A stretch of DNA of 36,567 bases, from the NCBI GenBank assembly GCA_028817975.1, contig JAPPOJ010000160.1, forward strand, positions 1-36,567, written 5' to 3'. Position 1 is the first letter of the stretch; each line of letters begins with the position of its first letter. The translations under genes were made by a program, and so were the position numbers. This DNA comes from Zetaproteobacteria bacterium. GTDB taxonomy: Bacteria; Bdellovibrionota_B; Oligoflexia; Oligoflexales; Bog-1112. The notes under the pieces are model-generated. The model saw nothing but the letters and a program-made list of their open reading frames with translations, was not told where the DNA came from and did not search any database. This document shows, in pieces, positions 19,255 through 24,382 of this stretch.

Positions 19255-20001
19255 TTATTCAGCATCTTTTTCTCCTAGGAATGAACCTAGCTTAGCGCGG
19301 ATGACTTTAGGGTTTTCTCCTCCTAACAAGCCTTTGACCCCTTCACGAATGATATCTACGTTAATACATTCTTGTTTTGAGGTGAATTTTAATTTTCCCC
19401 CAATAGGCATGGAAAAAAGGTTAGCGAAGAGAGAACCGTATAACGTTGTAATCAGTGCAACCGCTAGACCAGGGCCGATTGCATTGGGGTCACTTAAGTT
19501 GGCCATGATAACGACCAGCCCGATAACGGTACCGATCATACCGAAAGCGGGAAGTCCATCACTTAATTCATCGTAGACAGAGTGGCCATAGCCATGACGT
19601 AGTTTCAGGTTTGCTTTTTCGAGTAAAAGAATATTATCTATGATTTCAGGGTCATAACCGTCTACCATGCACCGAATAGCCTTGTTTAAGAAAGGGTTAG
19701 AGGCTACATGTTTTTCTAGACTTAGCACAGAACCTTTACGTGCAATATTGGCACATTCCACAATCTCTTCGACGAGCTCCGTGCTGTCTTGAGCTTTACC
19801 GGTAAATGCGAGTAATCCGGCTTTCAAGCCTGATAAGAAAACAGGTAGAGTAAATCGGATCATAACTGCTGAGAGCGCGCCACCCACGACAATCACTAAG
19901 CTCGCTAAGTCCCAGTAGAGGCCCAAACCGCCTGTTGTAAGCATAATACCTAGAATCACAATACAGCCAGCTGCTAATCCACCTACGCTTGCGATGTCCA
20001 T
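19255..20001 (-). CDS. motA: Flagellar stator protein MotA (PomA-like short form)
   Basis: 'MDIASVGGLAAGCIVILGIMLTTGGLGLYWDLASLVIVVGGALSAVMIRFTL', 'ARKGSVLSLE' with R and E eight residues apart, 'LPAFGMIGTVIGLV', 'GSLFANLFSMPIGGKL'. Confidence 0.93.
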   Translation of the reverse strand: MDIASVGGLAAGCIVILGIMLTTGGLGLYWDLASLVIVVGGALSAVMIRFTLPVFLSGLKAGLLAFTGKAQDSTELVEEIVECANIARKGSVLSLEKHVASNPFLNKAIRCMVDGYDPEIIDNILLLEKANLKLRHGYGHSVYDELSDGLPAFGMIGTVIGLVVIMANLSDPNAIGPGLAVALITTLYGSLFANLFSMPIGGKLKFTSKQECINVDIIREGVKGLLGGENPKVIRAKLGSFLGEKDAE

Positions 20002-20383: not shown

Positions 20384-21205
20384 TTATTCCTCTTGAGGTA
20401 AGTCGTCATACTTCACCATAATTTCCACTCTTCTATTCCCATCTCGGCCTTGTTGAGTTTCGTTGGAAAAGATGGGCTTGGTGTCGGCGTACCCTCCTGC
20501 TGAAATGCGCTGAGGAGGAAAGTCGTAGTAATCAATAAAGTATCTCGCCATAAAGGAAGCTCGTAGAGCCGAAAGCTCCCAGTTGGAAAAATCTCCATTG
20601 CTGGGGATGTTGTCTGTGTGCCCTGCAATATGAATCTTTCTTTCTGTGTTGATCAATGTTTCCACAAGGGGTGCTAATTCACGAATGGCTTTCCTTTTCA
20701 GCCGGTAAGCTCCTGGTTGATAGAAGACGGAGCTCATCAGTCGAATGGAGAGAAAGTCACCACTTTTAATCACTGTAATGGGACTGGTGGTGGTTGCTTT
20801 ACTGCCATCGGAGCCGGTATCCATCTTTTTACGCACTGAGTCGACAACATTGCGTACGGTGTCAAAGTCCTTGTTAATGATATTCAAAGCGTATTCGGTA
20901 CGGTTATACTTTTTTACAATGGGCTTGTGGTCTGCATCCCCTCGCCAGAACTTGAAGATATCTTTGCCTTTTACACTGGGCCCATATTTGGAAACTAGTG
21001 GAATGTCGTCTGGGACTTCCATAAAGGCCTCACGTATTGAGGAAGCTACCCCTAAGAATGCTTTTGTTTCCCCTTCGGGTTTGAGTCCATAAAGAACCAC
21101 GAAGGTCGCAAAGAGCAGTGTCATGAGATCGGCGTAACTTACAATCCACCCGGCACCGCTATTTTCTTCTTCATCATCATCCACGCTCAACCCTCCGAGA
21201 CTCAC
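20384..21205 (-). CDS. motB: Flagellar stator protein MotB (OmpA/MotB C-terminal domain)
   Basis: 'GWIVSYADLMTLLFATFVVLYG' with the conserved Asp; OmpA-like 'IHIAGHTDNIPSNGDFSNWELSALRA', 'RISAGGYADTKP', 'GRDGNRRVEIMV'. Confidence 0.93.
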   Translation of the reverse strand: MSLGGLSVDDDEEENSGAGWIVSYADLMTLLFATFVVLYGLKPEGETKAFLGVASSIREAFMEVPDDIPLVSKYGPSVKGKDIFKFWRGDADHKPIVKKYNRTEYALNIINKDFDTVRNVVDSVRKKMDTGSDGSKATTTSPITVIKSGDFLSIRLMSSVFYQPGAYRLKRKAIRELAPLVETLINTERKIHIAGHTDNIPSNGDFSNWELSALRASFMARYFIDYYDFPPQRISAGGYADTKPIFSNETQQGRDGNRRVEIMVKYDDLPQEE

Positions 21206-21269: not shown

Positions 21270-22316
21270 CTATATGGACATAGAAGTACATGATTTTTTG
21301 ATGCATACATATGGCTTATGCAGCTTGAAGTGTGCCTCTAGGGTGCGTAGAGCGGGCATTTCACTTAATAAAAGTACCCCATTGGCGTGCAGTAGTCGGT
21401 TGACTCGTGTGAGAAGCCGTGAACCTATTTCGACTTCTTTCTTTTTAAGCAAGATGCAGTCAAAAAGTGAGTTAGGAGTATTGAGGAGGTCCGGGTCTTG
21501 GTGCCAGCAAAATTGGATGTGTTGTGTTAGTAAGGGGTCCATCTTGTAGTTTCCTGTATGGGAGCCGCGTGCGCGGACAGAATACTTTGCTAAAACGGAC
21601 GGAGGTACATAGTGGTTGAGGAGTTTTTGAGGGAACATTCCAGAAGGAGGTTGTTGATCTTTGTTGGTTTCGTGTCCGCTGGTGATGATCTGGTAACTCA
21701 CTTGCTGTGGCTGGTGATGGTTCCACTCTTCGATGAGGATAGCAATTGCATAGGCTTCGACAGGCAGGGCATTGCCGCTCAACCATAGTGTCATTGCTGT
21801 TCCCTGGTGTTTGGGCAACACTTCATGTTGGAGGGCATGCAAATAATGTGGCTGTTGAGTGTAAGACGGAGCGCTTTGACGTAATAGTTCCTGATGGACG
21901 GCCCTTGATTCCTCCCCTCCTTTGTCCTGATCGAGAATGGAGATGTAATCCACCCAACGGTGTATTCGCCGTCTTGCCAAACGTTTGCGTAGTGAAATTT
22001 CTAAATCAAACTTTTGTTCGGGGAGAATTTCAATCTGGTGCTTGCGATGCAAAAATTTGCGGAAGAATTCAAACTCTTCTGCAGGCAGAGGAGGGAGTGT
22101 TGTGCTTACCTTGTCACCGAGGAAGCAAATGTGTTGTTGAGCCTGAGAACGTGCCGCTGTGCGCAAGGAATAGGGTTTGGTTGGGCGAGAAAAAGGCACG
22201 ATAAATGTATCCTCGTGATGAGGTATGACCAAGAAGCCATTCCAAAAGCTCTTATTGACGACAACAGCTCGTCCGTCGGTTGGATGAGGGCTGAGCTTGA
22301 TGTGTTTGTTTTGCAC
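21270..22316 (-). CDS. CheR-family methyltransferase homologue, apparently catalytically degenerate
   Basis: CheR N-domain-like 'EFEFFRKFLHRKHQIEILPEQKFDLEISLRKRLARRRIHRWVDYISIL'. CheR C-domain order preserved: 'TLWLSGNALPVEAYAIAILIEEW' ... 'GMFPQKLLNHYVPPSVLAKYSVRARGSHTGNYKMDPLLTQHIQF' ... 'SLFDCILLKKKEVEIGSRLLTRVNRLLHANGVLLLSEM'. Confidence 0.7.
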   Translation of the reverse strand: MQNKHIKLSPHPTDGRAVVVNKSFWNGFLVIPHHEDTFIVPFSRPTKPYSLRTAARSQAQQHICFLGDKVSTTLPPLPAEEFEFFRKFLHRKHQIEILPEQKFDLEISLRKRLARRRIHRWVDYISILDQDKGGEESRAVHQELLRQSAPSYTQQPHYLHALQHEVLPKHQGTAMTLWLSGNALPVEAYAIAILIEEWNHHQPQQVSYQIITSGHETNKDQQPPSGMFPQKLLNHYVPPSVLAKYSVRARGSHTGNYKMDPLLTQHIQFCWHQDPDLLNTPNSLFDCILLKKKEVEIGSRLLTRVNRLLHANGVLLLSEMPALRTLEAHFKLHKPYVCIKKSCTSMSI

Positions 22317-22336: not shown

Positions 22337-24382
22337 TTATTGAAAGGGGGCTGTGCTTGTATCGACTTCGTGTTTTTTTAAGTAGCGGATGAGGTCTTGT
22401 TCATCCCAGATCTGGCAGGTCTCAGATGCACGAGCTTTTTTGGCTTTGGATGACTGGCTCGATTTGTCTGAGATTAACAGCAGGTTTGTAGATTGGGTCA
22501 TACTGGAGCTGATGGTGGCACCTAAAGATTGCAAATACTTGGTCATAAGGTTGCGCGAACATGAGAATGTTCCGCTGATGACTAAAGTGAACTCGGTCAT
22601 GGGTGATATTGTTGAAAGTGTCTGAGCAGGTGGAATATATTTGGGTTTTATCAGGTTTTCCAGAGCTAAAAAATCATTGCGCTTTTGTTTTAGGGTGTTG
22701 AGTATGGTTTGTGCTCGCTTTGCTCCTACCGTCCGTCCTGGGGCAAGTTCCACTTGACTGAGTGCTTCTTGTTGGGTTGACGCTAAATGGAGAAACTTGT
22801 GGGTTCCTTGGTAGTGATGTTGGATGCCTACGGCGAGTTCTTTACCGAGCCCCGGAATGCCAAGTGCTGCGAGAAATAAAGCTGTAGAGCAGCCTTTCGA
22901 AGCTTGTATATTGGTCACAATTTTGTGAGCAATGGTCATCTGGTATCCTTCTAGGCGGGCAATCTGTTCCGACTCTAGTTGATATAGGTCACCCGTGCAA
23001 CGTACAAGCCCAGCGCGAATGAAGTGCTCAAGGCGCTGCTCCCCCAAATCGGCAATATCGAGTGTGCTACACCAATGGCGTAGTGTTTTGAGGAGTTGGT
23101 TGGGGCAGCTCGATGAATTAGGACAATAAAGCTGTAGAAAAGAGTTTCCTTCAGACTTGCGCCCCGTTTGCCCTTCTTCTTGAAAAAGAAGGTCTGTCTG
23201 ACAGCTGGGGCAACGCGTAGGAATTTGCGGAGGGCCAAATGTGGTGTGTAGATTCTCCTGGAGGTGGGGGATGATGTCTCCCGCACGTACGATTTTGACT
23301 TGAGAGCCTGGTTTGAGGTTCTTTTTGACCACGACTCCTGCATTGTGCAAGGATAGCCGTGATATTTTGGCGTTGCCAGGGGGCATATGGACGGGAGTGA
23401 GAATGCCAACTGGAATGACAAGCCCAGATCTAGAGGTATTCCATTCGATAGATTTAAGTTGTGTGGATGTAGCATAGGATTGCCACTTGAATGCAAGTCT
23501 GTATCTGGGATGGTGGCTGGTGGCGCCCATTTCGGTGTGGAGCTGAGTATGATTGATGGTCATGACGGCCCCGTCAATTTCGTATTCACGCTTGGGATTT
23601 TCTTTGAATGCTTGTGCTTCTTCAATAAAAGATTTGCATGCTTCAGGTGATTTTAGGAGGCGGCTGGGGGGTGGAGTGAATCCAGCTTCTGTGAGCCAGT
23701 TTACTTTGTCCTCTTCGGTCGCGATATTTAGCTCTTGGCTCAGCACATCGAAGCTGAAAAAATCAAAAAACCGTGCGAGGCTCGCATGGGATTTGCGGGT
23801 GAGCACTCCTGCGACGATGTTTCTCTCACTTGTAGGTGGATCAAGATTTAGGCGCTGCATTTCAGTGCTAAGTAGTTTGAATCCGTTCTTCGTGCAGTAA
23901 AGCTCACCTCTTATTTCTGTATAAGGCGCCTCCTGGAGCATGGGAAGTTTGAGGAGGTTTTTGCGTGCCAATACCCAGTGTAGTTTGCTCGTGACATCTT
24001 CGCCGGTTTTGCCGTCGCCCCGTGTTTTTGCGATTGTAAACGTTCCATAGCTATAGATCAGGCTCATAGAGTTACCGTCAATTTTGTATGCGCCCACAAC
24101 GGCGAGGTTTTTGCGCCATGCTTCCATTTCTTGCAGGTTATACACCTTTTTGAGACTCAGCATGGGGGTGGTGTGCTCGACTTTCTCAAGCCCAGAAGAT
24201 GGCTTGGAGCCTACCTGCTGCAAAATGGGGTGTTCCGGAGAGAGTGTCCGTAGCTGATCTTCAAGCTGGTCATAGTCTGCATCGGATAAAGTCGCGTTCC
24301 CGTGGGTGTATTGCTCTCTATGATAGATAATTTCTTGGACCAGGTAGTCGATTTGGTCGATGGAGGTTGATTTTGAATTCAA
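22337..24382 (-). CDS. ligA: NAD-dependent DNA ligase LigA (divergent)
   Basis: 'YKIDGNSMSLIY' (KxDG), 'TRGDGKTGEDVT', 'EIRGEL', 'AFKWQS', 'RAGDIIPHL', four-Cys zinc finger 'CPSC...CPNSSSCPNQ', HhH region, C-terminal BRCT-like domain. Confidence 0.88.
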   Translation of the reverse strand: MNSKSTSIDQIDYLVQEIIYHREQYTHGNATLSDADYDQLEDQLRTLSPEHPILQQVGSKPSSGLEKVEHTTPMLSLKKVYNLQEMEAWRKNLAVVGAYKIDGNSMSLIYSYGTFTIAKTRGDGKTGEDVTSKLHWVLARKNLLKLPMLQEAPYTEIRGELYCTKNGFKLLSTEMQRLNLDPPTSERNIVAGVLTRKSHASLARFFDFFSFDVLSQELNIATEEDKVNWLTEAGFTPPPSRLLKSPEACKSFIEEAQAFKENPKREYEIDGAVMTINHTQLHTEMGATSHHPRYRLAFKWQSYATSTQLKSIEWNTSRSGLVIPVGILTPVHMPPGNAKISRLSLHNAGVVVKKNLKPGSQVKIVRAGDIIPHLQENLHTTFGPPQIPTRCPSCQTDLLFQEEGQTGRKSEGNSFLQLYCPNSSSCPNQLLKTLRHWCSTLDIADLGEQRLEHFIRAGLVRCTGDLYQLESEQIARLEGYQMTIAHKIVTNIQASKGCSTALFLAALGIPGLGKELAVGIQHHYQGTHKFLHLASTQQEALSQVELAPGRTVGAKRAQTILNTLKQKRNDFLALENLIKPKYIPPAQTLSTISPMTEFTLVISGTFSCSRNLMTKYLQSLGATISSSMTQSTNLLLISDKSSQSSKAKKARASETCQIWDEQDLIRYLKKHEVDTSTAPFQ

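Follow-up and report, generated by a model that had tools for sequence, protein, structure and literature searches.

A probable non-catalytic CheR-family protein encoded beside stator genes, sister to the intact CheR of its own genome

Non-catalytic CheR proteins have barely been described. A CheR-like domain of this kind is already known from the spirochaete Treponema denticola, where it forms part of the CheW-CheRlike protein (TDE1492), the only such case that we found in the literature searched. Its CheR-derived domain, about 20% identical to normal CheR, is fused to CheW and lacks the residues of the receptor-binding subdomain as well as the catalytic Arg and Tyr, which in CheR are essential for methylation (PMC7666581). 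It nevertheless still binds SAM, with a Kd of 8.8 uM, occurs in all the Spirochaetia genomes that its authors examined, and has a non-enzymatic role in array integrity (PMC7666581). Thus a CheR domain without its catalytic residues can serve the structure of the array. In Salmonella CheR, the beta-subdomain binds the receptor tail, with contacts to the pentapeptide made by Q182, R187, G188, G190, G194 and R197 in Salmonella numbering (PMC2577667).

Here we describe a CheR-family protein, labelled CheR*, encoded on the minus strand of contig JAPPOJ010000160.1 (assembly GCA_028817975.1, order Oligoflexales), whose whole analysed stretch of 36,567 nucleotides is called the window (Table 1). The reading frame is continuous from a GTG at 22316 to the stop at 21270. 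The original prediction had seen the CheR layout throughout, and this was borne out by the Pfam CheR SAM-domain model, which matches residues 155-332 with 34.3 bits (cut-off 27, E 2e-8), and by hhalign against an alignment of seven CheRs, which covers residues 74-340 with a probability of 99.3 (E 1.5e-20). The match to the NCBIfam CheR equivalog model is weak (35.9 bits, cut-off 435), and that to Pfam CheR_N, with 6.4 bits, lies below its cut-off of 27. A sequence search of solved structures gave Salmonella CheR (PDB 1af7, 1bc5) and 5y4r, at E-values of 0.0008-0.0016, and a Pfam scan found no CheW domain. The AlphaFold model, made with one relative (a Mariprofundaceae CheR) as input, is of low confidence (pLDDT 41, pTM 0.31) and has helices in residues 78-147. 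The original prediction had also pointed to about 75 extra N-terminal residues that it could not assign. These do stand without relatives, as searches with the first 80 residues gave no match beyond chance and no Pfam domain, but their translation is not established, because three later codons, at residues 29, 40 and 51, could also start the frame, and residues 1-75 have a borderline codon score. None of these later codons has a convincing ribosome-binding site, and the listed start at GTG 22316 is itself uncertain.

Table 1. Features of the CheR* locus, with positions in the window; residue numbers are those of CheR*.
Feature	Position	Strand	Basis or remark
CheR*, CheR-family pseudo-methyltransferase (putative), 348 aa	21270..22316	-	ORF; Pfam CheR over cut-off; hhalign; sister of C96 CheR
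N-terminal extension, residues 1-75, maybe partly untranslated	22092..22316	-	no relatives, no Pfam, borderline codon score
Equivalent of CheR N-terminal alpha-domain, residues 78-147	21876..22085	-	of 68 positions aligned with C96 CheR, 19 identical, 31 positive; CheR_N sub-threshold
SYTQQP in place of FFRE catalytic segment, residues 151-156	21849..21866	-	Arg (59/59 others) is Gln154
ALPVEAYA in place of STGEEPYS SAM motif, residues 183-190	21747..21770	-	Gly (59/59) is Pro185; Glu187 kept
SGHET in place of TDIDT, residues 213-217	21666..21680	-	Asp (59/59) is Gly214
Beta-subdomain loop VLAKYSVRARGSHTGNYK, residues 241-258	21543..21596	-	alignment; loop length equal to C96 CheR; contact residues per PMC2577667
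DCILLKKKEVE in place of DxIFCRNVxIYF, residues 286-296	21429..21461	-	Asn (59/59) is Lys292; catalytic Tyr deleted
ligA (NAD-dependent DNA ligase), next gene upstream of CheR*, gap of 20 bases	22337..24382	-	Pfam DNA_ligase_aden, DNA_ligase_OB
motB (stator protein like MotD), next gene downstream of CheR*, gap of 64 bases	20384..21205	-	Pfam MotB_plug and OmpA; NCBIfam MotD
Lipoprotein-like protein after motB, 124 aa	20035..20409	-	homologues in 35/54 genomes; no Pfam
motA, PomA-like stator protein	19255..20001	-	Pfam MotA_ExbB; NCBIfam PomA

The departures from CheR include the residues that make it an enzyme. They were counted in an alignment of CheR* with 59 other CheR sequences and with the CheR encoded on contig C96 of the same genome (C96 CheR, G000:C96:19003-19842). 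An Arg, a Gly, an Asp and an Asn that are invariant in all 59 others and in C96 CheR read Q154, P185, G214 and K292 in CheR*, and the invariant Tyr of the IYF segment falls in a four-residue deletion. All the motif changes quoted in the original prediction were confirmed column by column: FFRE reads YTQQ, STGxE reads ALPVE, TDID reads GHE after the S, and CRNVxIYF reads LKKK. Thirty-two columns reach 80% conservation or more in the CheR family; CheR* retains 8 of them and each other CheR at least 24, a retention for CheR* that is no better than its overall identity of 23-24%. Since CheR* has lost both the catalytic pair and these residues of the SAM site, it is very unlikely to methylate. Nucleotide binding, one of the roles that had been suggested for it, looks unlikely too, at least for SAM, because, of five invariant pocket or catalytic residues, four have been exchanged and one is missing. 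The earlier reading is supported in so far as CheR* is a protein of CheR fold, kept intact and very probably not a methyltransferase; the suggested adaptor for receptors or flagella is a candidate role.

The segment LAKYSVRARGSHTGNYKM, previously considered as fold-stabilising, aligns instead with the beta-subdomain, the part that binds the receptor tail in Salmonella CheR (PMC2577667). At the six positions of pentapeptide contact CheR* reads A, R, A, G, G and K, and so keeps three of the six, with a Lys for the second Arg; this is not beyond chance at 23-24% identity (binomial P about 0.15). C96 CheR, read from the alignments, has all six. The product of the receptor gene directly before it ends in GWEKL, a tail that looks like the CheR-tethering pentapeptides described for other receptors (PMC2577667).

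Besides CheR*, the genome encodes four CheR domains that match at normal strength. One of them is C96 CheR, whose gene is clustered with those for CheA, CheW, a receptor (MCP) and a receiver-CheB. By BLASTP it aligns with CheR* at 121 bits, with 27% identical and 54% positive positions over 249 residues, while the C-terminal tail of CheR* (320-348) has zero identity with it. In a maximum-likelihood tree of 61 CheRs the two are sisters, with a support of 99/96 and end branches of 3.25 changes per site for CheR* and 0.16 for C96 CheR. Long branches are treacherous in trees, but here the placement agrees with the scores: in a search of 188 genomes C96 CheR scores 113 bits against CheR*, and the next relative only 52. 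The computations thus show a common origin of CheR* with C96 CheR. Orthologues of CheR* were found neither among the other 44 of the 45 genomes searched in the order, nor among the 188 genomes, nor in the named genome collection, and the hits from these searches whose family was checked were ordinary CheRs. Judged from the tree and the scores, CheR* is a local duplicate of the genome's own CheR, with extreme divergence on one side, seen in one genome. Because the case comes from a single genome bin and has no orthologue, the degenerate state can be described for CheR* but not as a conserved one.

The genome holds further CheR-related genes. Two CheR-receiver-CheB fusions are encoded at L143:4208-6034 and L142:1636-3891, besides the stand-alone CheRs. 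L144:7822-9189 encodes a protein of 455 aa whose C-terminal part resembles methyltransferases, with weak matches to CheR and Methyltransf_20; next to it are encoded a histidine kinase and a protein that begins like a response regulator. The weak matches to the CheR model on contigs C159 and C205 are other methyltransferases, not degenerate CheRs.

In the window, ligA, CheR*, motB, the gene of the lipoprotein-like protein and motA form a same-strand run. Scans for promoters and terminators around this putative operon were no richer than shuffles, so that membership of CheR* in it is read from spacing and strand. Another motA/motB pair lies on contig C191 of the genome, which also has 9 flagellin and 10 receptor matches. 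The MotB of the window has relatives with as much as 51% identity, and thus the locus itself is not decaying. This MotB is closer, at 47-51%, to those from two other families of the order than to any in its own family (at most 41%), which suggests that it belongs to a second, distinct type of stator or has been transferred. Homologues of the 124-aa protein all fall within the order, with none in nine same-class genomes of another family, and in many genomes the gene lies directly beside motB. It is a candidate for an order-specific stator lipoprotein.

Whether CheR* is a relic can be judged from simulated decay. The C96 gene was taken as ancestor-like, an assumption backed by its short branch, and subjected to neutral mutation, without insertions or deletions, in 500 runs to the observed nucleotide identity of 42%. 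The simulated copies had a mean of 11.8 stops and a minimum of 4, against none in CheR*, and even at 70% nucleotide identity none of the 500 runs kept the frame open. Positives reach 51% (140/273) in CheR* against a simulated maximum of 36%, and identity at the second codon position is 0.54 against at most 0.49. An order-level CheR profile from which CheR* and C96 CheR had been left out gives CheR* 85 bits, against no more than 2.8 for neutral copies and at least 223 for normal members. Its hydropathy tracks the family mean (rho 0.49; at least 0.54 in the other members). Codon usage is typical of the window's genes over residues 76-250, and the codon score is atypical over residues 251-348. 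These computations show an intact CheR-like protein that was retained under purifying constraint, and the balance favours one kept for its fold and released from enzymatic constraint.

Several other explanations must be weighed against such a selected, non-catalytic derivative, which we regard as quite probable whatever its role. The protein may be losing its function: an active duplicate would have diverged under some constraint, become dispensable, and would now be drifting with its frame still open. The very long end branch of 3.25, functional columns (8/32) no better kept than overall identity, the poor codon score at residues 251-348 and the lack of orthologues in relatives all speak for this. 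The failure of every neutral run to stay open, together with a second-position identity and a profile score above neutral expectation, makes it rather improbable, and recent loss after long constraint is the sole form of decay left as possible. Conversely, CheR* could still be active as a methyltransferase, its pocket rebuilt and its substrate a new one. Trp178, Glu187 (beside the lost Gly of motif I), Tyr189, Phe285 and Asp286 are indeed retained, but the changes from Gly to Pro, Asp to Gly, Arg to Gln and Asn to Lys and the deletion of Tyr remove residues of SAM binding and catalysis (for Arg and Tyr, PMC7666581), leaving this reading only a very slim chance. We give just as little credit to an artefact of assembly or binning, by which the gene would be chimeric or the contig foreign. 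The assembly is a draft bin of 314 contigs and CheR* was found once; against this, its sister is the C96 CheR of the same genome, which makes a foreign origin unlikely, the frame is single and continuous, with typical codon usage over residues 76-250, and MotB and the lipoprotein have their relatives within the order.

There remains the question of what a selected, non-catalytic CheR* would do. The best explanation, held tentatively, is a binding-only pseudoenzyme derived from a duplicated C96 CheR. The receptor methyltransferase of the genome would have been duplicated, and one copy, unable to bind SAM usefully or to methylate, would act by protein-protein contact through the docking surfaces of CheR, namely the alpha N-domain and the beta-subdomain. 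A binding-only role, at receptors or at the enzymes of their adaptation, is favoured because the N-domain, the scaffold and the beta-subdomain stay collinear with CheR, where these parts meet receptors. Its partner might perhaps be the tail or methylation region of a chemoreceptor, where CheR* would compete with active CheR or scaffold it; the stator encoded beside it ranks second and is a less likely partner. That a dead, stand-alone CheR derivative physically links the receptor adaptation machinery to the adjacent stator, and so couples motor drive and adaptation, seems distinctly improbable. The scaffold could also have been recruited to the MotA/MotB/lipoprotein complex as an accessory that adjusts how this complex assembles or performs, without any part at the receptors. 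This is in keeping with the same-strand run from CheR* through motB and the lipoprotein to motA, with its 64-base gap to motB, and the second motA/motB pair means that the set in the window may have a regulator of its own. However, the flanks available for the three closest motB-lipoprotein loci (G026, G014, G013) hold that pair and no CheR, and the unrelated ligA, on the other side, is nearer to CheR* at 20 bases. The link of CheR* to the stator is drawn from same-strand adjacency in one genome, which is weak evidence, and we consider such an accessory unlikely. The location of CheR* nevertheless suggests the stator as an early partner to test.

The weight of the case is limited by its occurrence in one genome, without orthologues. 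Salmonella CheR (1af7, 1bc5) and chemotaxis protein methyltransferase 1 (5y4r) are similar over most of CheR*, but they are ordinary enzymes with their motifs present. The closest protein is C96 CheR, a sister collinear over 249 residues, with a beta-subdomain loop of equal length; unlike CheR*, it has the FRE, STGAE, STDID and RNVFIYF motifs and the full set of pentapeptide contacts. Like the CheW-CheRlike protein of Treponema, CheR* is derived from CheR and has lost the catalytic Arg and Tyr. It differs from it in standing alone beside stator genes, in the further loss of SAM-site residues, and in its presence in one genome. Since the Treponema domain is fused to CheW and binds SAM, CheR* is not a member of the CheW-CheRlike group. 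What is new here, going by the tree and the alignments, is the sister relation to the genome's own intact C96 CheR, with divergence on one side: an active parent and its apparently non-catalytic offspring sit in one genome, and the change from enzyme to binder can be tested pairwise.
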